This document shows positions 12,400 to 49,055 of a stretch of DNA of 64,000 nucleotides, piece after piece; positions within the stretch are counted from its first letter, which is position 1; each line of letters starts with the position of its first letter. The position numbers and the translations under genes are program-made. Source of the DNA: Anaeroplasma bactoclasticum (GTDB taxonomy: Bacteria > Bacillota_I > Bacilli_A > Acholeplasmatales > Anaeroplasmataceae); contig NZ_QXEV01000005.1 in assembly GCF_003550015.1 (NCBI RefSeq), forward strand, positions 1 through 64,000. Reading direction: 5' to 3'. Under the pieces are notes generated by a model. That model did no database searches. It had not been told where the DNA came from and saw nothing but the letters and a program-made list of their open reading frames with translations.

Positions 12400-12939
12400 T
12401 TATTTGTTAATATATTTTTCTATATATTTATCTATTATTTTGTCATAATCCTTATTTGGAAAATGAGTTTCTATTCCTAAATACTTCTTCAAATACCATT
12501 TAGAGAATGCATGAGCATCAAGTTCTAAGGACATTGCATAATATTTATTCATAGAATTTTCATCCTGAATATTTACTGGAGTTAGGATATAGGGGATTTC
12601 ATTCATCCACTGTAATAATAGTTTTGGGTTTACTTTATTATCATATTTATCTGTTATACAGCATAATATTTGAAACTCATGCCTAACCTCATGGACAAAT
12701 GATTTCACTGCATCATTAAAATCCTTTAGCATTCTTTTAGAGATGACAATAAATTGTTCCTTAAAATAAAATCTTGAGTCCTCTTCTATATCCTCTACCA
12801 CCACTGGTATCATTGGAACATTTAAGTATTCTGCTAATTCCTTATGAATTGGGATAAGTCTTTCAAGCATTTCCTCTTCATCCCATTTTTCATGCCCAAA
12901 GGCGTTTATAAAATCTTCCTTTATTTTCTCTTTATCCAT
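12400..12939 (-). CDS. ImmA/IrrE-like zinc metallopeptidase
   Basis: I start at ATG 12939 because AAAGGAGAAATAGC directly precedes it; a longer reading to 12978 would run through the operator. The 179-aa protein has HEVRHEF (about 88-94), an HExxH zinc site, and a downstream acidic helix (ELDAHAFSKWYL) that could give the third ligand. This family cleaves paired XRE repressors during element induction. Its divergent neighbour at 13082 is such a repressor, so the pair likely forms a lysogeny or excision switch. Confidence 0.78.
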   Translation of the reverse strand: MDKEKIKEDFINAFGHEKWDEEEMLERLIPIHKELAEYLNVPMIPVVVEDIEEDSRFYFKEQFIVISKRMLKDFNDAVKSFVHEVRHEFQILCCITDKYDNKVNPKLLLQWMNEIPYILTPVNIQDENSMNKYYAMSLELDAHAFSKWYLKKYLGIETHFPNKDYDKIIDKYIEKYINK

Positions 12940-12951
12940 GCTATTTCTCCT

Positions 12952-13031
12952 TTGCCACCTCTTTGGAGGCAATTTCATTTTACATCATTGCCACCTTATT
13001 GTCAACACCATTGCAACCAAAATGGAGGCAA
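12952..13031. promoter_or_regulatory. Repeated operator in the peptidase / XRE divergent promoter
   Basis: Two 21-bp sites have the same plan of 8 + 5 + 8: TTGCCACC (12952-12959) with GGAGGCAA (12965-12972), and TTGCAACC (13011-13018) with GGAGGCAA (13024-13031). A further half-site TTGCCACC lies at 12988-12995. They fill the intergenic region between the divergent genes and overlap the start region of the peptidase transcript. They are probably bound by the XRE protein at 13082. Confidence 0.75.
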
Positions 13032-15245: not shown

Positions 15246-15273
15246 AAAAAGAAAAAGGCTTGTCAACGAGCCT
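15246..15273 (-). terminator. Terminator of small RNA A
   Basis: On the minus strand AGGCT and AGCCT form a stem around CGTTGACA, followed by a T-rich run (TTTTTCTTTTT). It separates the RNA from the structured leader of the 345-aa gene. Confidence 0.8.
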
Positions 15274-15282
15274 AATTTTTAA

Positions 15283-15365
15283 CCCTGCGACTTATCAGTC
15301 GCCTACAGGGAAGCGACAATCATTTCTTAATCCTGCGACTTGTTAGTCGGCTACAGGAAACCGAC
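15283..15365 (-). repeat. Pseudoknot repeat array A (2 copies, 48-nt period)
   Basis: The copies differ at stem positions in matched pairs: GTCGC/GCGAC versus GTCGG/CCGAC, and CCCTG/CAGGG versus TCCTG/CAGGA. Loop sequence CTACAGG and the trailing AATCATT are conserved. Confidence 0.75.
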
Positions 15366-15403
15366 AATCATTCAAAGTTCTTAGCCGTTTTTATGGCATA
15401 TAT

Positions 15404-15432
15404 ATTTTACTATAAATTGCAAAGAAATTCAA
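15404..15432 (-). promoter_or_regulatory. Promoter of small RNA A
   Basis: On the minus strand, -35 TTGAAT (15432-15427), a 17-bp spacer and -10 TAAAAT (15409-15404). The spacer begins TTCTTTGCAA, as it does at small RNA B. Confidence 0.7.
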
Positions 15433-15435
15433 ATA

Positions 15436-15627
15436 TTATAAATTCTTTATAAACTTAATTACTGCTTCTTGATATTCATCAAATTGAATTTCCCCATTAA
15501 TCCATTTTCCAACCTCTGGAAGGTTATTAATGGATGAATCAATTTCTTCTCCAAAACCAGCTCCTGTAATATTTGAGTTCTTTTCAACGATTTTTCTTCT
15601 TCTAATTTTTTCTTCTTCTGTAATCAC
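15436..15627 (-). CDS. VbhA-like small antitoxin-type protein A2
   Basis: The 63-aa protein starts with GTG that overlaps the TGA of the upstream gene (GTGA), with AAGGA before it. It has the plan of VbhA-type antitoxins: an EEKIRRRKIVEK helix, a turn (NITGAGFG) and a second helix pair with W-INGEI-x3-EY. The Fic-inhibition motif (S/T)xxxE(G/N) is not intact. It is a close relative of the 68-aa gene before it and of the 64-aa gene in cassette B. An antitoxin role is inferred from shape and context. Confidence 0.55.
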   Translation of the reverse strand: MITEEEKIRRRKIVEKNSNITGAGFGEEIDSSINNLPEVGKWINGEIQFDEYQEAVIKFIKNL

Positions 15628-15830
15628 TGTTTTTCCTTTCTAAAGGATTCTACATAATTATGTATTAAATTTATATACTCATTATGTGATATTTTACCAT
15701 TTATCCAAAGCTCATGTGCTAGAAGTTCTTTAAGTTCTTTATGAACTTCACCACCCATACCAGCTCCAATAATATTTAAATCTGTATTGATTTCTTTTCT
15801 TCTTCTAATCGTTTCTTCTGTAATTGACAT
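15624..15830 (-). CDS. VbhA-like small antitoxin-type protein A1
   Basis: The 68-aa protein matches its neighbour in order and motifs: ITEETIRRRKEI, NIIGAGMGGE, LWINGKISHNEY. It lies 2 bp after a 34-aa ORF and overlaps the next gene by 4 bp, so cassette A contains a duplicated copy of this unit where cassette B has one. The positively charged tail (FRKEKQ) differs from the others. Likely a partner of the 197-aa protein; not proven. Confidence 0.55.
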   Translation of the reverse strand: MSITEETIRRRKEINTDLNIIGAGMGGEVHKELKELLAHELWINGKISHNEYINLIHNYVESFRKEKQ

Positions 15831-15832
15831 AA

Positions 15833-15937
15833 TTACATCAACTCCTTCACTAGAAAATCAACAACAGTGGATGAATAATTTCTTCCACCGTATTGCATTA
15901 ATGCTCTTATTTTTTCATTACTGAAACAAGATTCCAT
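15833..15937 (-). CDS. Short ORF (34 aa) in cassette A
   Basis: It begins inside the 3' end of the 197-aa gene (31-bp overlap) and stops 2 bp before the 68-aa gene. The peptide contains SNEKIRALMQYGG and STVVDFLVKELM. A frame-broken relative (SDELIKA..., SITNIFIKAG) lies at 17085-17205 in cassette B, which supports a real coding history. Translation could be coupled to the 197-aa gene. Function unknown. Confidence 0.4.
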   Translation of the reverse strand: MESCFSNEKIRALMQYGGRNYSSTVVDFLVKELM

Positions 15938-16500
15938 CTTCGCATCATTCCTTTCTTATCAACATATTCTTTCTTTTTAATTTCTTCAAGTTCTGGTTCT
16001 AAATATATAAAATCTAACTTTATATTTGTAGCACCCCATAATTTGGCGTTCCAAGCTGTATTTGAAACAGTCAAACTTATAGCTAACCTTTCTGCTAGTT
16101 CATCATATTCAGAAAAATTCTTTTTAACAGAAAGCTTGATTTCATCTCCAGGATTCCACATTTCAAAGACATCATAAGCCCAAACCTTTAGGAATAAATA
16201 TCTGTAGAAGTTAGGCTTTAACCCTTTTCTAAATTTTAATGAAATATTTTTTTCTGAATTTAAGGTTGCAATAACATCAAAATCATTATTATTACCATAT
16301 AAGCTTATTACATTCTTCTTATTAAAATCTAAATACTCAAAGTCAAAAGAATAACCCCATTGTTCTTTTATTTTATTTGAAAGAACACGTAAATCATCTT
16401 TATGACTATATAAAAGTAGAGTATCTCTTATTTCTTCTTCTAATGTTTTAAATAAAACATAATCAGTAATTATTTCATTTAAAAATTTATATCTATCCAT
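15907..16500 (-). CDS. Cassette A core protein (197 aa), possible degenerate ImmA/IrrE-like fold
   Basis: It aligns along its whole length with the 199-aa protein of cassette B: MDRYKFLNE at the start, KIKEQWGYSFDFEY, then YRYLFLKVWAYDVFEMWNPGDE and LAERLAISLTVS. The order (strand, RFLFLK-x-WAYD helix, then WAERFAIELT helix) recalls ImmA/IrrE peptidases, where HExxH and an ExxxFA helix occupy those places; here the zinc His residues are absent. It is preceded by a 74-aa helical protein and followed by VbhA-like proteins, a toxin-antitoxin style layout. Toxin or sensor role is an inference. Confidence 0.45.
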   Translation of the reverse strand: MDRYKFLNEIITDYVLFKTLEEEIRDTLLLYSHKDDLRVLSNKIKEQWGYSFDFEYLDFNKKNVISLYGNNNDFDVIATLNSEKNISLKFRKGLKPNFYRYLFLKVWAYDVFEMWNPGDEIKLSVKKNFSEYDELAERLAISLTVSNTAWNAKLWGATNIKLDFIYLEPELEEIKKKEYVDKKGMMRRWNLVSVMKK

Positions 16501-16511
16501 TATACCTGCTC

Positions 16512-16736
16512 CTATTGATTATTATTTTTTCTTTCCTTCATTGCTTCTTCTAATTCACGCATAGCTAATTCTTTACCAAGCCTTGCATATTCTTCTGCAT
16601 CTATTTCTTCATAGATGTAACGATTCTGTAATGCAATTAATTCATCACTATCTGGAATATTATTTTCTGGATGTAATGAATGAGCCATAGCCTTAGCTCT
16701 TTCAACTTCTTTCTTTCTTAACATATTAAATGCCAT
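16512..16736 (-). CDS. Cassette A leading small helical protein (74 aa)
   Basis: The protein is nearly all helix: an RKKEVERAKAMAHSLHPENN start and an IYEEIDAEEYARLGKEL second half, similar to the binding-helix part of VbhA-type antitoxins. SLHPEN fits the pattern (S/T)xxxE(G/N) known from Fic inhibitors, though the paralogue in cassette B does not keep it. It is 11 bp from the 197-aa gene and driven by the promoter at 16786-16814. Probably an antitoxin or autoregulator. Confidence 0.5.
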   Translation of the reverse strand: MAFNMLRKKEVERAKAMAHSLHPENNIPDSDELIALQNRYIYEEIDAEEYARLGKELAMRELEEAMKERKNNNQ

Positions 16737-16785
16737 ATTTCATGTTCTCCTTTATATATAATTTGTACTGCCTTTTGATGCTTAA

Positions 16786-16860
16786 ATTATACCATTTTTT
16801 AGGTCTTTTTTCAACATTTTATATATATTATATATAATATATATAAGGACTTAAAATGTC
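16786..16860 (-). promoter_or_regulatory. Cassette A promoter and palindromic operators
   Basis: On the minus strand, -35 TTGAAA (16814-16809), 17 bp, -10 TATAAT (16791-16786). Directly upstream lie an AT palindrome (TATATATTATATATAATATA core) and GGACATTTTAAGTCC, an imperfect dyad. The same arrangement precedes cassette B, so autoregulation is likely. Confidence 0.75.
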
Positions 16861-16871
16861 CCCATTTAATA

Positions 16872-16899
16872 CAAAAAAATAAAGGGCAATACGCCCTTT
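16872..16899 (-). terminator. Terminator of small RNA B
   Basis: AAAGGGC and GCCCTTT flank a 5-nt loop and are followed on the minus strand by TATTTTTTT. The stem also has a T run on the plus strand, so it may act both ways. Confidence 0.8.
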
Positions 16900-16900
16900 T

Positions 16901-16997
16901 TGAACCCCTACCACTTGTTAGTCGCCTATAGGGAAGCGACAATTATTTTATGAACCCCTACCACTTGTTAGTCGCCTATAGGGAAGCGACAATTATT
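16901..16997 (-). repeat. Pseudoknot repeat array B (2 identical copies, 50-nt period)
   Basis: Two exact 47-nt copies separated by TTA. Each contains CCCTA, GTCGC, TAGGG and GCGAC in that order on the plus strand. There are no unique spacers, so it is not a CRISPR array. Confidence 0.8.
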
Positions 16998-17042
16998 GAT
17001 CTGGCATATAGCCAAAATTAAAGCCTTCGTTTCGGCATTTAT

Positions 17043-17083
17043 ATTTTACCCTGTATTGCAAAGAAATGCAATACAGGGTAAAA
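17043..17083 (-). promoter_or_regulatory. Promoter of small RNA B within a 17-bp perfect inverted repeat
   Basis: TTTTACCCTGTATTGCA (17044-17060) and its exact complement (17067-17083) flank a 6-nt loop. The minus-strand promoter (TTGCAT, 17 bp, TAAAAT) is embedded in this dyad, so the dyad is better read as an operator or cruciform than as a terminator. Confidence 0.65.
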
Positions 17084-17206: not shown

Positions 17207-17401
17207 CTAATTCGAAGCTATATCGTTATGAACAGCTTTATTTAATTCTTCTAATGTAATATCACCAATTATATATTGCTCCCAGTATGGTGCTTTTCTT
17301 ACAACTGGAGAAATTTCTTTGCCATAACCTGCGCCAACAATATTAAAAGTTTTCTCAATAATTTTTATTCTTCTAATTTTTTCTTCTTCTGTAATTGCCA
17401 T
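17207..17401 (-). CDS. VbhA-like small antitoxin-type protein B
   Basis: The 64-aa protein matches A1 and A2: ITEEEKIRRIKIIEK, NIVGAGYGKE, then YIIGDITLEEL. It ends cassette B and is 22 bp after the 199-aa gene. The inhibitory Glu of Fic antitoxins is missing here too, so all three family members lack it. Likely the same partner role as in cassette A. Confidence 0.55.
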   Translation of the reverse strand: MAITEEEKIRRIKIIEKTFNIVGAGYGKEISPVVRKAPYWEQYIIGDITLEELNKAVHNDIASN

Positions 17402-17423: not shown

Positions 17424-18023
17424 TTAGAAGTCTGGTTTCATCCATTTTCTATCAATCCACCTTTCTTCTTCATATTCGTGTTCTCGTATTGCATAAAGCT
17501 CTGGTTCCATTATTTTTTTGATTGCAAGAATATCTCCAGCTTTAGAACCATCTTTTATTCTTTGGTAATCTACATCTGAAAGGGTAAGTTCTATTGCAAA
17601 TCTCTCAGCCCAATTTCTTTCAAATTTGTCTTTGCATGTCATTACATTTAAATAAAGTTCATCACCCGGCTTCCAAGCATCAAAAACATCATAAGCCCAG
17701 GCTTTTAAAAATAGGAATCTTTGGAGATTGAGTTTTGTTTTTTTGTCGAAAACAAAAGTAATATTTTTTGGGCTATTTAATTTTACATATACATCTGTTT
17801 CTGGAATTAAATGATAGTTTTCAATAACGCTCTGTTTCTTAAAATTTTCATATTTAAATTCAAAAACATAACCCCATTGTTTTTTTATTTTCCAAGCTAT
17901 TCTTTCCATATCATCTAATTTATAACCTGATAATCCTAAATAATTATGCATAATAGAAACAATAAGTGTTTGCATTAAACCTGCATCAGTAATATTTTCA
18001 TTTACAAATTTATACTTATCCAT
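17424..18023 (-). CDS. Cassette B core protein (199 aa), paralogue of the 197-aa protein
   Basis: Shared landmarks with the cassette A protein are MDKYKFVNENITD, KIKKQWGYVFEF, NLQRFLFLKAWAYDVFDAW, KPGDELYL and AERFAIELTLS. Conservation is strongest around the WAYD helix and the FAIELT helix. The rest has diverged, so the duplication is not recent. The position of the two helices recalls ImmA/IrrE-like folds without the zinc site. Product function unknown; a toxin-like core is one reading. Confidence 0.45.
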   Translation of the reverse strand: MDKYKFVNENITDAGLMQTLIVSIMHNYLGLSGYKLDDMERIAWKIKKQWGYVFEFKYENFKKQSVIENYHLIPETDVYVKLNSPKNITFVFDKKTKLNLQRFLFLKAWAYDVFDAWKPGDELYLNVMTCKDKFERNWAERFAIELTLSDVDYQRIKDGSKAGDILAIKKIMEPELYAIREHEYEEERWIDRKWMKPDF

Positions 18024-18086: not shown

Positions 18087-18314
18087 TTATTTATTTTCCC
18101 TTTTAGATGCCATTCCACGTTCTAACTCACGATCTGCGATCTCTCCAATTAATTTGGAAAATTCCTTTGCATCTATTTCTTCATAGATATATTTTCTGTT
18201 TGCTTCTTCAACTTCCCTTAGGGCAATTTCATCATGCTCAACTCCAGGATATAAAGAATTTGACATAGCCTTTGCATTATCCAATTCTTTCTTTCTTTTC
18301 ATATTAAATGCCAT
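18087..18314 (-). CDS. Cassette B leading small helical protein (75 aa)
   Basis: It is the paralogue of the 74-aa protein: MAFNMKRKKELDNAKAMSNS and KYIYEEIDAKEFSKLIGE. The Fic-inhibitor-like pattern seen in copy A reads SLYPGVE here and is broken. The stop is 63 bp before the 199-aa gene, a wider gap than in copy A. It is driven by the promoter at 18362-18390. Likely an antitoxin or autoregulator. Confidence 0.5.
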   Translation of the reverse strand: MAFNMKRKKELDNAKAMSNSLYPGVEHDEIALREVEEANRKYIYEEIDAKEFSKLIGEIADRELERGMASKRENK

Positions 18315-20197: not shown

Positions 20198-22084
20198 TTA
20201 GGCTATTACTCTTTTTAAATCATCAATAGTTAATACTTTCTTTTCAACCAATTGTCTAGCTAATAGCTCTATGTTCGCCTTGTTTTCTTTAATTATCCTT
20301 CTAACATTCTTCTCACATTTTGCTAATATTTTTTCTGATTTCTTCTCATTAATCCTTTTTTTGTTTGGAGAAGTTTTATCCGGAGAATTATTAATTAAAG
20401 ATTCAAATCCATCGTATGCGTAATCATTTATCAACTGTGCTGATTGTTTTCTTGCACGTTCTAGGTCTGAAATTGCCCCTCTATCTCTATGATTATGAAG
20501 CATCAAACATGCCAAATACCCACCTAAAGATATTTCAATATCAGCAATATTCCTTTCGGTTGAGCCTGGTCTATAATCTGTAGGAAAAACTTTACATAGA
20601 CCTCCACTAAGACTATTTACTTCTAATGTAGCCTTATAGAACTTAAAGAAATCCTGATGATAATAAGCAACTACTGCATGTCCAACCTCATGAACTGCTT
20701 CTAAATATCTATCATGTTCTTCGACATCTCCATAATACTCACTATCTCTTTTATTAATTTTATCAATCATTTCTTCAATATTAGATATGGATGGCTTTTC
20801 ACCAAATCTTAATCGAGTTTCATTAGCAATCGCTTTGATATTCACAGCATTTTCACCGCTAGTTATTAATGCTAAGTATTCAAGGTCATAATCACCAACT
20901 ATTCCATATTTTTCAAAATAATATTTGAATAAATTGATTCTTTCTTCGGTTGTTGGATTACCTAGGCCAATGATATAGTCAAGTCTACCACGTCGTGTTA
21001 AAGCAGGATTAAGATTGTCATAACCATTACATGTAGCAACAACAAATATATTAGAACTATCACCACCTAATCCATCAAGTTGAGTTAACAATTCTCTTTC
21101 TGCACTTCTTGCAAATATATCAAATTCGTCTATCAAAATAATGACAAACCTTTTTAAACTTCTAGCATAATCAAATGTCTTTTTTACATTATCATCATTC
21201 CGATAACTATCATCTTTAATTTTTAGAATAGTTGCATCTGAAAATAGATTCGCAAACTCCTTAGCAAATAAAGTTTTACCCGTACCAATTGGTCCATATA
21301 ATAGTATCCCTTTAGGAATATCAATTCCTTTCTTTTGTATTTCCTTTCTATTATCAATCCATGATTTTACCAACAACAATTCTTTTTTAATTTCATCATA
21401 GCCTGCAATTTTATCAAAATTACTACTTCTAATCTCCGAATCAATATGATCATCTTCACTGACAAACAATCTGCTATAATCTTCAATGAAATTAAATTCA
21501 TATTTTAATTCTTTACCTTTTTTCTTGTTTTCTATTAGCCTTACAAGTAATTCCTCATCGCCATGCTTTGAATAATATGATTCCCTATCAACCAATATAG
21601 TATTATCAACTAAATCAACTTTATTTAACATTATTTTAAAATCTTCGATTTTGAATTCATCAAAATATTTATTTTTATTTGTATCTCTAACCAATAATAA
21701 TTGAATATCATTATCAATCGATATTTTTCTTAATTTATCAACATTAGTTAAAATATCACCATTAATTTTATTAATCCTATCAATTATACACAAATCAAAG
21801 TCTTTATGCTTAATCAATAAATTACATACATCATCAATGTCTGTGGCATGTTCATAAATTACGAAATTGGAAAACTTATTTATTCTTTCATTATCGCCAT
21901 ATAATATTTTATTAAGCTTATTAATAATAAAGTTTTTACCATTCTTATTATTTATAATGCATACTTTTTTATTTAAAAAAATATCAATCAGAAAGTTTAA
22001 ATAAAATGTTTGTTTACCAATTCTAGGGGCTCCAGCTAGTAAAGTAATATTTCCATTTTGTATAAAATCCATTATAGTTTTCAT
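20198..22084 (-). CDS. Cytosolic FtsH-like AAA protease with an extra N-terminal P-loop domain
   Basis: ATG 22084 is preferred (GGAGG seven bases upstream) over 22090; product 628 aa. Residues about 10-190 are a RecA/DnaB-like ATPase (Walker A GAPRIGKQ, then DLCIIDRINK). An AAA domain follows (GPIGTGKT about 262, IDEFD, SRH TRRGRLDY). The C-terminal M41-like part has HEVGH (about 464) and a third metal ligand in DLERARKQSA, as in FtsH. No membrane segment is present, unlike true FtsH. A paralogue lies at 35460. Likely an ATP-driven protease in a conflict system; its target is unknown. Confidence 0.8.
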   Translation of the reverse strand: MKTIMDFIQNGNITLLAGAPRIGKQTFYLNFLIDIFLNKKVCIINNKNGKNFIINKLNKILYGDNERINKFSNFVIYEHATDIDDVCNLLIKHKDFDLCIIDRINKINGDILTNVDKLRKISIDNDIQLLLVRDTNKNKYFDEFKIEDFKIMLNKVDLVDNTILVDRESYYSKHGDEELLVRLIENKKKGKELKYEFNFIEDYSRLFVSEDDHIDSEIRSSNFDKIAGYDEIKKELLLVKSWIDNRKEIQKKGIDIPKGILLYGPIGTGKTLFAKEFANLFSDATILKIKDDSYRNDDNVKKTFDYARSLKRFVIILIDEFDIFARSAERELLTQLDGLGGDSSNIFVVATCNGYDNLNPALTRRGRLDYIIGLGNPTTEERINLFKYYFEKYGIVGDYDLEYLALITSGENAVNIKAIANETRLRFGEKPSISNIEEMIDKINKRDSEYYGDVEEHDRYLEAVHEVGHAVVAYYHQDFFKFYKATLEVNSLSGGLCKVFPTDYRPGSTERNIADIEISLGGYLACLMLHNHRDRGAISDLERARKQSAQLINDYAYDGFESLINNSPDKTSPNKKRINEKKSEKILAKCEKNVRRIIKENKANIELLARQLVEKKVLTIDDLKRVIA

Positions 22085-22112
22085 ATTCATTCCTCCTCTA
22101 ATAAAATTTATA

Positions 22113-35459: not shown

Positions 35460-37496
35460 TTATAAATACGTCTTTATATCCTCAGCTGTAATGGTCTTCT
35501 TTTCATATAAAATATTGGATAATTTAATTATTTTCGTTTTATTCTTCTTAATAAGCTTTCTAACTCTTTTTTCAGAATCCTTGAGAATCTTTTCAGATAA
35601 TAATTCATTGTGTTGCATCTTTTTATTCGATGGAGTAAATGAATTAGCACTATGGTTTAATACTCTATCAAAGCCTCCATATCCATATGAATTGATAAGG
35701 GAGCAAGCTTTATGACGTGCATTTTCTAAATCTAATCTACAGCCAGTAGAATCATAATCATATAATACTTTACATGCTAAATAACCTGCTAAAGATATAT
35801 CTATATCCGCAATCATCTTTTTAGAATCATCAATACTTTCCTTCTTTGCTATATATCTACAAATTCCTTGAGATCTTGAATTTGATTCTAAGGTTGTTTT
35901 ATAGAATGTGAAGTATTTAGAATTCTTTAGTACTACAATAGTGTGACCAATTTCATGTACTGCGGTCATATAATCTGAGGAATCCCCAAAATCACCATAA
36001 TATAGTGATTTCCTATTTCTAAGTCTATCTATTTCAGCTTCTAAATCAGTTATAGTAAGATGATTACCATATCTTAAAACTGAATCATTAACTAAAGCCT
36101 TTAATTCAGCAGATGTTAAATATGTAGTGATATAAGATAAATAATCATAATTAATGTCAGCTTCTACATTACACTTAGAAAAATAATATTTTAGGATTTC
36201 AATTCTTTCTTTTTCATTTGGTCTTCCAATTTCAATTAGAAAATCTAATCTGCCTCTTCTTGTTAGTGGACCTTCTACATTATCTAATTCATTAGTAGTT
36301 GCTACAATAAATACATTGGAAGATGAATTTAGGGAATCAAACGCTGTTAATAAATCCCTATGATTCTTCTTATATAGGTATTCCAATTCATCCATAAATA
36401 CAATTACTAAACCACTATGCTTTTTAGCCAGCTCAAACTTTTCTAGGATTTCAAGCTCATTATCAATTGATATTATCTTAAAATCTTTAATCTCATTAAT
36501 GAACGCTCTAGCCATTAATGATTTGCCGCAGCCTGAACAACCATAAAATAATATTCCATGGGGCAGGTCTATACCCTTTGCTCCATATTTTTTATAGTCC
36601 TTCCACCACTTAGATATTTTGATTAATTCCTTCTTTAATTCTTCAAAGCCTGCAACATTATCAAATGTAATAGTGTTTTGATTTAAAGCTTCTGTTCCAA
36701 ATATTCTTCTAGTCTTCTCGTCATACTTATAGGATATATAATATTCATCCTCTAAATAGAGATTCATTACCTTATAGGCCTCTTCTTCATATCCATCTCT
36801 TAATTTAATAAATGAATCAATAAAGTCTTTCTTTTCCTCATAATTGAATGGTCTATCTAAGGTTGTTCTATTTGCAATGATAAACCTATAGCCATTATCC
36901 TTTAAATAATGGATTATTTCTATTTCAAAATCATAATCTCTAATTCCATCAATAATGATTAAGCTATCATTAGGGAACTGACTAATCTGTTCTTTTAGCA
37001 ATGAATAATCCTCTTCATACTTTGAGACATAATGATTATACGTATGTCTTTCAAATACATTTCCATTCAACCTATATGTATGAATTTTCAAGAATGCTCT
37101 ACAAAATAGTGCTATTTTCTCTTTACCTTTATAATTAGCAACAAAGTTAATTAAAAAGGCAGTAACTGCGGCAAAATCACCGAATAGATAAATACCTTGC
37201 TTGTTATTTATATATTCCATAAAGCTATCCAATAAATCACTTTTAGCATTAGGATAATGTAGATAATTATTATTACTATCTAATAATCCTAATTCCATTA
37301 ATTCAGTATTAGATAATGGAGTACCATCGACTAGTATAACGAAGTCACTAGGCTTTTTATATAAACACTCATTGGTATAAATGATATATAATAATTCATT
37401 TGTTAAATTCTCATATTCATCTACTGAATCACTAGGACTCTTATAATCCCATGGAGTGTTTTCTTTTCTATTTATCATCAATGTATAGTTTTTCAT
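35460..37496 (-). CDS. Second cytosolic FtsH-like AAA protease
   Basis: The 678-aa protein is a paralogue of the gene at 20198. Its N-terminal part (1-245) keeps the strand GIYLFGDFAAVT and LIIIDGIRDYD but the Walker A Lys is lost, so the first ATPase is probably inactive. The AAA part has GCSGCGKS (about 320), FMDELE and TRRGRLDF. The protease part has HEIGHT (about 514) and Asp in DLENARHKACSL. No membrane helix is present. It is followed by the LRR gene and preceded by a 291-aa gene, and may form one system with them. Confidence 0.8.
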   Translation of the reverse strand: MKNYTLMINRKENTPWDYKSPSDSVDEYENLTNELLYIIYTNECLYKKPSDFVILVDGTPLSNTELMELGLLDSNNNYLHYPNAKSDLLDSFMEYINNKQGIYLFGDFAAVTAFLINFVANYKGKEKIALFCRAFLKIHTYRLNGNVFERHTYNHYVSKYEEDYSLLKEQISQFPNDSLIIIDGIRDYDFEIEIIHYLKDNGYRFIIANRTTLDRPFNYEEKKDFIDSFIKLRDGYEEEAYKVMNLYLEDEYYISYKYDEKTRRIFGTEALNQNTITFDNVAGFEELKKELIKISKWWKDYKKYGAKGIDLPHGILFYGCSGCGKSLMARAFINEIKDFKIISIDNELEILEKFELAKKHSGLVIVFMDELEYLYKKNHRDLLTAFDSLNSSSNVFIVATTNELDNVEGPLTRRGRLDFLIEIGRPNEKERIEILKYYFSKCNVEADINYDYLSYITTYLTSAELKALVNDSVLRYGNHLTITDLEAEIDRLRNRKSLYYGDFGDSSDYMTAVHEIGHTIVVLKNSKYFTFYKTTLESNSRSQGICRYIAKKESIDDSKKMIADIDISLAGYLACKVLYDYDSTGCRLDLENARHKACSLINSYGYGGFDRVLNHSANSFTPSNKKMQHNELLSEKILKDSEKRVRKLIKKNKTKIIKLSNILYEKKTITAEDIKTYL

Positions 37497-47300: not shown

Positions 47301-49055
47301 TCAATTCAATTCATTTACAAATATACTAGGATTTAATCTTTTTCTCATTCCGTGAATAATATGGTATTCTGCTGAGGATAGATATAGATATTCCTTTGCT
47401 CTTGTCATCGCAACATACAATAATCTTCTTTCTTCTTTTATATCATCCTCATTTTTCAAGCTTTGAGGAATTATTTTATCATTTACTGAGATGATGAATA
47501 CACATTTAAATTCTAAGCCCTTGGCTCTATGAATGGTTATTAGGTTAACTCCCATTTCATTTATATCCTCATCATCAGATAATAATATATTATCTAATAT
47601 TTCCTTATTAGTTTTTAATTGGCTATTTATCATAATATCCTTTAGGGCTCTTAGGTATTCAAGTTCTTTATCTGTTGGGTTATTAAATAGTATTTCAAGT
47701 AAGGATTCAAATAATTGCTTACGGTCATATTTAGATATAATAGTTAATAATTCTTTGATCGCTTGAGCTTTAGTGGATATATCACTAATATTCATTTCTA
47801 TGATAATATCTAAAGGAGATTTATTCGTTGATTTGATTCTTTTTATGATTAAATCATAAAAGATATCATCAATTTGAAGGGCTTGTAAAAGCAATATATA
47901 GTCACTTGGATTATCTAGAAATTGGTATAAGGCAATCATTCTTCTGGTTGAAGCTATCTTAAAGAATTTTAATTTACCATAGGCTATAAATGGGATATTA
48001 TTTCTTTTTAGCTCATATTCTATTTCAGTAGATTGATAATTATTTCTAAATAGTACAGCAATCTCATTTGGCTTATAGTTACCTTTTTCTATGAACCTTT
48101 TTATTGTGCTTGCAACCTCCCAGGCTTGGTAGGATGTATCCGGTAGCTCATGGTAGATTACCTTGAATTTAGGGTTAATATTAGAATAGATATCACTTTG
48201 TAGATTATGGTTATGCTTTATTAGGTTATTAGCTTTTTCTAGGATGTTTGAAGCACACCTATAGTTTTGATTTAAATAGATGATTTCATCAGCACTATCC
48301 TTAAATTCATTAATTATTCTTACATCAGATGATCTAAAGGAATATATTAGCTGGTTGATATCTCCTACGCAAAATAGGTTATTATATTTTGATGATAGCT
48401 TTTTTAATAGTTCATATTGAATTTGATTTGTATCCTGGAATTCATCCACTAATATGTATTTACATTGATTTAATATAGAATCCTTAAATGATATATTATC
48501 AATATTATTTAGAAATAGAGATATCATATCATCAAAATCAATTTCTCCTCTTTGCATCATGTATTCCTGAAATTTGTAATATACCTGGTTATAGATTCTT
48601 GCCTCGTCTGTTGTCTTGAATTTATATTCTAGATTATTTTTTCTTTTGGTGATAAATTGCATTAAGGATTTAGGGCTATATTTTATATTTAGATCATTGA
48701 TTATTTCATTTAAAATATATAATTCATATTCTTCTGTTACTATTCTTATGGAATCAAATTTATTAAAGCCTAATTCATCCTTGGCATTTAATAGCATCTT
48801 ATAAGAATAGCTGTGGAAGGTATATATATTATTAAATTTATTATTTAATCGATATATCATTTCCTTAGCCGCTCTTTTAGTGAAGGTAAAGGCTATTATT
48901 TCATTTGGAGATACTCCATTATCAAGTAGGTATTTGATTCTTGTTGTTAATACCTTAGTTTTACCTGATCCTGCACTTGATGCAACTAATACTCTTTTAG
49001 AATTAGTTGTCACTGCCTTGTATTGCTCTTTATTTAATTGGTTCAAATATTCCAT
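47301..49055 (-). CDS. PcrA/UvrD-type SF1A helicase
   Basis: The 584-aa protein has the SF1A motifs in order: I (ASSAGSGKTKVL, about 28-39), Ia (AFTFTKRAAKEM), II (LVDEFQDTNQIQ), III (FCVGDINQLIYSFR), IV (EIAVLFRNNYQSTE), V (LITIHRAKGLEFKCVF) and VI (RRLLYVAMTRAKEYL). It is shorter than PcrA (about 720 aa). PcrA-type helicases unwind for Rep_trans initiators, so its place two genes after such a Rep fits. It overlaps the 84-aa gene start by 26 bp. Confidence 0.9.
   Translation of the reverse strand: MEYLNQLNKEQYKAVTTNSKRVLVASSAGSGKTKVLTTRIKYLLDNGVSPNEIIAFTFTKRAAKEMIYRLNNKFNNIYTFHSYSYKMLLNAKDELGFNKFDSIRIVTEEYELYILNEIINDLNIKYSPKSLMQFITKRKNNLEYKFKTTDEARIYNQVYYKFQEYMMQRGEIDFDDMISLFLNNIDNISFKDSILNQCKYILVDEFQDTNQIQYELLKKLSSKYNNLFCVGDINQLIYSFRSSDVRIINEFKDSADEIIYLNQNYRCASNILEKANNLIKHNHNLQSDIYSNINPKFKVIYHELPDTSYQAWEVASTIKRFIEKGNYKPNEIAVLFRNNYQSTEIEYELKRNNIPFIAYGKLKFFKIASTRRMIALYQFLDNPSDYILLLQALQIDDIFYDLIIKRIKSTNKSPLDIIIEMNISDISTKAQAIKELLTIISKYDRKQLFESLLEILFNNPTDKELEYLRALKDIMINSQLKTNKEILDNILLSDDEDINEMGVNLITIHRAKGLEFKCVFIISVNDKIIPQSLKNEDDIKEERRLLYVAMTRAKEYLYLSSAEYHIIHGMRKRLNPSIFVNELN

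Follow-up and report, generated by a model that had tools for sequence, protein, structure and literature searches.

What is the role of an antitoxin-like RNA that has no toxin gene beside it? This question is raised by a 64,000 nt stretch of DNA from Anaeroplasma bactoclasticum (assembly GCF_003550015.1, contig NZ_QXEV01000005.1, positions 1 to 64,000; hereafter the window), the minus strand of which carries two small RNAs, termed RNA1 and RNA2, with two tandem repeats of 48-50 nt apiece (repeat family D1). It is the adjoining toxin that defines a type III antitoxin RNA, and surveys based on the toxin therefore miss arrays that lack one. The evidence presented here suggests that RNA1 and RNA2 resemble CptI, the RNA antitoxin of the CptIN system, and that arrays of their kind are conserved without the toxin gene cptN at their side.

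Every repeat contains two 5 bp helices, S1 and S2, that interleave in the order a-b-a′-b′ with the spacing S1(5)-2-S2(5)-3-S1′(5)-10-S2′(5). When both strands of the 64 kb were scanned for Watson-Crick pairing in exactly this geometry, the four units of RNA1 and RNA2 were recovered and nothing else, and the same scan of 60 first-order Markov surrogates gave no matches. An earlier reading of this DNA made from its letters alone (the sequence-only reading) had proposed two minus-strand RNAs at this place, each with two repeats built from interleaved helices, and both the repeat family and the scan bear this out. The predicted RNA1 transcript (16872-17036, minus strand, as are all features of the locus) would comprise a short GCC/GGC leader hairpin, unit 1a (16956-16990; GTCGC TT CCCTA TAG GCGAC TAACAAGTGG TAGGG), unit 1b (16906-16940) with an identical core, and an intrinsic terminator stem (16899-16881) followed by a T run. 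RNA2 (predicted transcript 15246-15397) would likewise consist of a leader hairpin, unit 2a (15331-15365; GTCGG TT TCCTG TAG CCGAC TAACAAGTCG CAGGA), unit 2b (15283-15317; GTCGC TT CCCTG TAG GCGAC TGATAAGTCG CAGGG), and a terminator stem (15273-15256) followed by TTTTTCTTTTT. The terminators are thus present as had been proposed, and so is the 5′ GCC-GGC hairpin, although the latter is only 3 bp long in the window; it extends to GTGCC/GGCAC in two related loci (L011 and L012).

The promoters of both RNAs are plausible predictions of moderate quality. For RNA1, TTGCAT (17071-17066) and TAAAAT (17048-17043) are separated by 17 nt (17043-17071), a promoter-like element read by eye that falls below the threshold of our promoter scan. 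For RNA2 the scan gave TTGAAT-17-TAAAAT (15404-15432; 9/12). The 17 nt spacing attributed to sigma-A promoters in the sequence-only reading therefore holds, but the boxes are moderate and promoter-like elements are no more numerous in the region than in shuffles. A 17 nt perfect inverted repeat (17044-17083) overlaps the RNA1 promoter and could serve as an operator or form a hairpin in read-through transcripts; in L011 the corresponding position has a related, shorter symmetry (TTGCA..TGCAA). Neither RNA as a whole is unusually stable (minimum free energy z-scores of -1.2 and -1.3). Ordinary minimum free energy folding cannot display pseudoknots; the evidence for them is covariation and homology.

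When the DNA of 150 relatives was searched, arrays were located in three further species of the genus; the genomes are metagenome assemblies, and the relatives include rumen metagenome-assembled genomes. Counting the two in the window, the genus holds six arrays in four species with 16 units (2, 2, 2, 3, 2 and 5 per array), 12 of which come from the three other species. Covariance model R1, run against all 160 genomes of the order, returned these 16 units and no others. The S2 helix occurs as CCCTA/TAGGG, CCCTG/CAGGG, TCCTG/CAGGA, TCTAG/CTAGA, ACCTG/CAGGT, TCTTG/CAAGA, TCCCG/CGGGA and CCCCG/CGGGG, with pairing kept in each, whereas S1 is nearly constant in these toxin-less arrays. In the 16-unit alignment 96.7% of cells are paired, compared with 31-57% in controls in which the partners were slid by 1-3 columns, and double-change cells number 20 versus 4.8 in shuffles. 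In L011, unit five of the array is degenerate. As S2 has changed repeatedly with its pairing kept, far above the controls, the pseudoknot is a conserved feature, and the pseudoknots of these arrays are under selection and have been maintained over the long term. The compensatory changes described in the sequence-only reading are therefore as stated; the 12 further units agree with them, and pairing is retained across the homologous arrays.

A search of the whole class added a tandem pair from another family (G379, locus L082), with units of the form GTCGC TT CTCGA TAT GCGAC TCATAAATGG TCGAG. This array has a TTGACA promoter before it and a terminator after it, and sits between an orphan MazE-like open reading frame (ORF) and tgt. 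Near it (L082, 8236-9553), a DUF3990 protein stands beside an XRE-domain protein in an arrangement like that of a toxin-antitoxin pair.

The connection to CptI was found in both search directions. From motif to toxin, a pattern drawn from the toxin-less (orphan) arrays was run over 2.9 million viral contigs and produced four matches, in only one of which S2 pairs; the other three (L085-L087), in which S2 is unpaired, were dropped. The remaining match, on a phage contig (L088/L100), has a register shifted by one and an S2 of CCGCT/AGCGG, and is followed on its 3′ side by a terminator and then by an ORF matching the NCBIfam family NF047359 CptIN (E 1.7e-23, a fragment). From toxin to motif, CptN loci were chosen by similarity of the toxin protein alone, from plasmids (Megamonas, Virgibacillus, Peribacillus, Fusobacterium, Oscillibacter and Planococcus) and viral contigs, and were searched with a covariance model, R2, trained without any CptN locus. 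Four of the collected toxins, checked against NF047359, gave E-values of 7.8e-55 to 7.5e-32. Directly upstream of cptN, R2 matched in L089 (E 6e-4), L091 (0.004), L098 (3e-5), L097 (3e-4) and L096 (0.045), these covariance-model values being rough, and more weakly at the same place upstream of the toxin in L094 and L102. Under strict rules the pseudoknot geometry lies upstream of 7 of 12 CptN genes and almost never appears in shuffles; the unit beside CptN in L097, for example, reads ACCGC TT TCTGA TAT GCGGT N10 TCAGA. GTCGC stems like those of the window occur in the CptI units of Planococcus (L102), Peribacillus (L091) and the phage contig L100. A joint alignment of 24 units has 96.5% of its cells paired, double changes in 8 of 10 pairs, and 49 double-change cells where shuffles give 13.3. 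Since R2 matches arrays at CptN loci and the pattern search reached a CptN locus, we conclude from these sequence comparisons that the window RNAs are candidate type III antitoxin RNAs of the CptI kind. The type III hallmark noted in the sequence-only reading is thereby supported and narrowed to one family. Rfam covariance models did not match the arrays, even at permissive thresholds.

Two of the CptN loci have features of their own. On the Fusobacterium plasmid (L092, 1300-3177) the CptIN locus is immediately followed by an annotated ToxN/AbiQ toxin that has its own, different repeats, giving two type III systems in tandem. On the Megamonas plasmid (L089, 985-1200), as read by eye, a truncated cptN, annotated only as hypothetical, comes after a CptI array, with an intact CptIN alongside.

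The likeness to CptI extends to details of structure. In the crystal structure of CptI from the CptIN system of Eubacterium rectale (PDB 4RMO), the RNA is a 45 nt H-type pseudoknot with a one-base first loop (L1) and a long A-rich loop, and the features reported as essential are the very short L1, the long A-rich L2, a kink pyrimidine (U) flanked by A, and a final G (PMC4627078). The arrays share the tandem units of 45-50 nt, the intrinsic terminator and the long A-rich second loop, and counterparts of the kink are found in an invariant A28, a pyrimidine Y29, a near-invariant A30 and an invariant A31. G35, before S2′, is present in all orphan copies (our numbering is one longer than in PMC4627078). 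L1 would also be one base in the window units if the U-G pair flanking S1 is counted. Unlike in CptIN, no CptN gene follows the window arrays, which instead lie 3′ of a VbhA-like ORF and combine a near-constant S1 with a diverse S2. ToxI/AntiQ (of ToxIN and AbiQ) and TenpI share with them the tandem pseudoknot units, the terminator and the type III principle, but ToxI/AntiQ units measure 34-36 nt (PMC5086642) compared with 46-50 nt here, and R2 did not match the ToxN/AbiQ-associated repeats in L092.

A complete CptIN system demands cptN directly downstream of the array, and no such gene follows either array of the window; we therefore class the RNA alone as CptI-like and do not file the locus as a CptIN system. 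Neither tblastn nor a profile search detected CptN in the 64 kb window, in a further 40 kb of its contig (together 104 of 104.4 kb) or in the related loci, in local agreement with the earlier statement that no toxin of the known type III families is visible. None of the seven arrays outside CptIN loci has a linked cptN.

What does adjoin the arrays of the genus is a protein cassette, A-B-C, of which the window holds two copies with one RNA after each. Cassette 1 consists of ORF A (75 amino acids (aa), 18087-18314, behind TTGAAA-17-TATAAT, its C-terminus weakly resembling the VbhA-like family), ORF B (199 aa, 17424-18023) and ORF C (64 aa, 17207-17401, immediately 5′ of RNA1). Cassette 2 has ORF A (74 aa, 16512-16736, behind TTGAAA-17-TATAAT), ORF B (197 aa, 15907-16500) and two C genes, C1 (68 aa, 15624-15830) and C2 (63 aa, 15436-15627, immediately 5′ of RNA2). 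All six arrays of the genus have ORF C upstream, and four of them protein B; in L013, ORF C and the RNA occur with no B upstream. The consistent protein neighbour sought in the sequence-only reading thus exists within the genus but not outside it, ORFs A, B and C all being absent at the L082 array. Conversely, a third A-B-C cassette of the same genome (L025, 4525-5596; G000:C2) lacks the RNA, has a terminator right after it and stands next to unrelated housekeeping genes, and in L054 an ORF C without the RNA lies behind a homologue of the 502-aa gene of the window. The RNA and the cassette proteins are therefore separable. The genes downstream of the arrays are all different: groES, a NuoE-like gene, a sigma factor, the cassette ORF A, a 352-aa ORF and tgt.

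ORF C is called VbhA-like because a homologue in L053 (2188-3167; G008:C55) immediately precedes a Fic protein (HPFNEGNTR; Pfam PF02661, E 4.8e-10). It also matches the Bartonella VbhA chains 5eu0 and 5nh2 weakly over its full length. Unlike VbhA, however, the arrays have no Fic gene beside them, and the inhibitory (S/T)xxxE(G/N) motif is not evident in the ORF C alignment, which reads NI.GAGFG with A or S at the expected Glu. Protein B is probably a catalytically dead IrrE/ImmA-like protein, a suggestion that comes from modelling. In the better AlphaFold model (mean predicted local distance difference test score 82) the top eight PDB matches were all IrrE/PprI or IrrE-domain regulators (E 0.1-0.3); an earlier, poor model had matched CapP (E 0.015). 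In contrast to IrrE/ImmA (Peptidase_M78), all five homologues carry K[VA]WA[YF] at the HExxH zinc site (KVWAY in cassette 2), and a sequence-profile match to that family was not found. Protein B was rejected as a diverged CptN, with an hhalign profile-comparison probability of 0.2% and no type III toxin among the structural matches. ToxN/AbiQ family matches were absent among the cassette proteins, the viral contigs held no relatives of protein B and, by tblastn, none of ORF C, and a phage DNA search found no DNA relatives of the locus. Also discarded were a class-level protein match (G334), which is a ribonuclease-J-like ORF, weak DNA matches L003, L007 and L010, which are chance AT-rich similarities, and short, chance plasmid DNA matches at E 0.04.

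The position of the genus arrays behind this cassette could mean that the cassette encodes a new toxin, be it protein B or one of the other proteins, with the CptI-like RNA as an antitoxin encoded 3′ rather than 5′ of that toxin. Such a new type III-like system, which the sequence-only reading had offered as a possibility, would agree with a unit number that varies from two to five as in type III antitoxins and with a protein B that is no recognisable CptN. We regard it as the chief alternative but nevertheless consider it unlikely: the same genome has a complete cassette without the RNA, L013 dispenses with an upstream B and L082 with all three proteins, every CptIN locus has its RNA on the 5′ side of the toxin, and B is likened to IrrE/ImmA folds with type III toxins absent from the listed structural matches. 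A new RNA-regulated system formed with the cassettes is thus not established. Slightly more doubtful still is the proposal that a CptI-like RNA was re-used for a non-CptN toxin within the cassette of a dead IrrE/ImmA-like protein and its VbhA-like partners, with RNA and protein antitoxins forming one module that has the RNA at its 3′ end. We give equally little credence to a split locus, in which a cptN elsewhere on the same chromosome would supply the toxin of a CptIN pair and the arrays its antitoxin; a resident toxin would demand the persistent selection on the pseudoknots, but searches covering 104 kb of the contig's 104.4 kb and the loci from three related species gave no cptN.

The degenerate fifth unit in L011 and the Megamonas array beside a truncated cptN are what would be expected if the arrays were decaying remnants of former CptIN loci with no present function. 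That explanation is improbable in view of the many compensated S2 replacements within the toxin-less arrays themselves, the retention of terminators and promoter-like elements, and the persistence of the arrays in four species. The least probable alternative, and one that we rejected, is a cis-regulatory element such as a riboswitch or attenuator for the next gene. Every array has a terminator before a gene, and that in L082 lies upstream of tgt, but the downstream gene differs in every case and Rfam is silent even at permissive thresholds.

Because none of the seven arrays has a linked cptN and yet the pseudoknots stay selected, action in trans as stand-alone antitoxins is the explanation that we judge most likely, with moderate confidence: RNA1 and RNA2 would be conserved orphan CptI-like antitoxins directed against CptN-type toxins of other elements. 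Each RNA would be transcribed from its own promoter, and its units, as covariation and matches to arrays beside CptN genes show, fold as CptI-type H-type pseudoknots. By analogy with CptI, the A-rich linkers would permit cutting into single units, and a single unit would bind and block a CptN-type endoribonuclease. The targets could be CptN-type toxins that plasmids, integrative elements or phages import, or the product of a cptN at another genomic site. There is a precedent in the pseudo-ToxI of phage PhiTE escape mutants, antitoxin repeats acquired without the toxin, which can neutralize a type III toxin in trans (PMC3475682, as described in PMC5086642); that case concerns phage mutants facing ToxIN, whereas the arrays described here are of CptI type, reside on bacterial chromosomes and are conserved between species. 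The adjoining orphan VbhA-like ORF, a relative of Fic antitoxins, and in one case the orphan MazE-like ORF, fit an 'orphan antitoxin' cassette. The Megamonas array beside its truncated toxin, read by eye, is an observed route to an orphan array.

Several points weigh against trans action. The CptI antitoxins that have been assayed gave no cross-inhibition of non-cognate CptN (PMC4627078), and with such narrow specificity one particular, close toxin should be the target. The search for cptN was confined to 104 of the 104.4 kb contig and the related loci, and the gene could lie in the rest of the genome. Transcription of both RNAs is a prediction from their promoter-like and terminator sequences. 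Finally, the VbhA-like ORF at all six arrays of the genus suggests a tie to the cassette that a purely trans-acting role does not need.

Other features of the window are recorded here as observations. An ORF at 12400-12978 has a HEVRHE motif and is metallopeptidase-like, with weak DUF3920/DUF6782 matches. Two paralogous FtsH-like AAA proteins with HEVGH/HEIGH motifs (20198-22090 and 35460-37496) lie among mobile and defence-like genes. The Rfam family RF03531 (n00280, a C. difficile small RNA included in a helicase gene) matches above its gathering score at 47367-47465 (minus strand), inside a UvrD-like helicase ORF, and is probably just coding sequence.

A covariance model built from these RNAs is a means of finding such arrays that does not depend on the toxin, and the orphan-antitoxin idea is within reach of the E. 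coli kill/rescue assays that exist for CptIN. The occurrence of toxin-less CptI-like arrays with strong covariation in four species and in another family suggests that RNA antitoxins can become stand-alone antidotes, which would parallel some protein antitoxins in acting against toxin-carrying elements.

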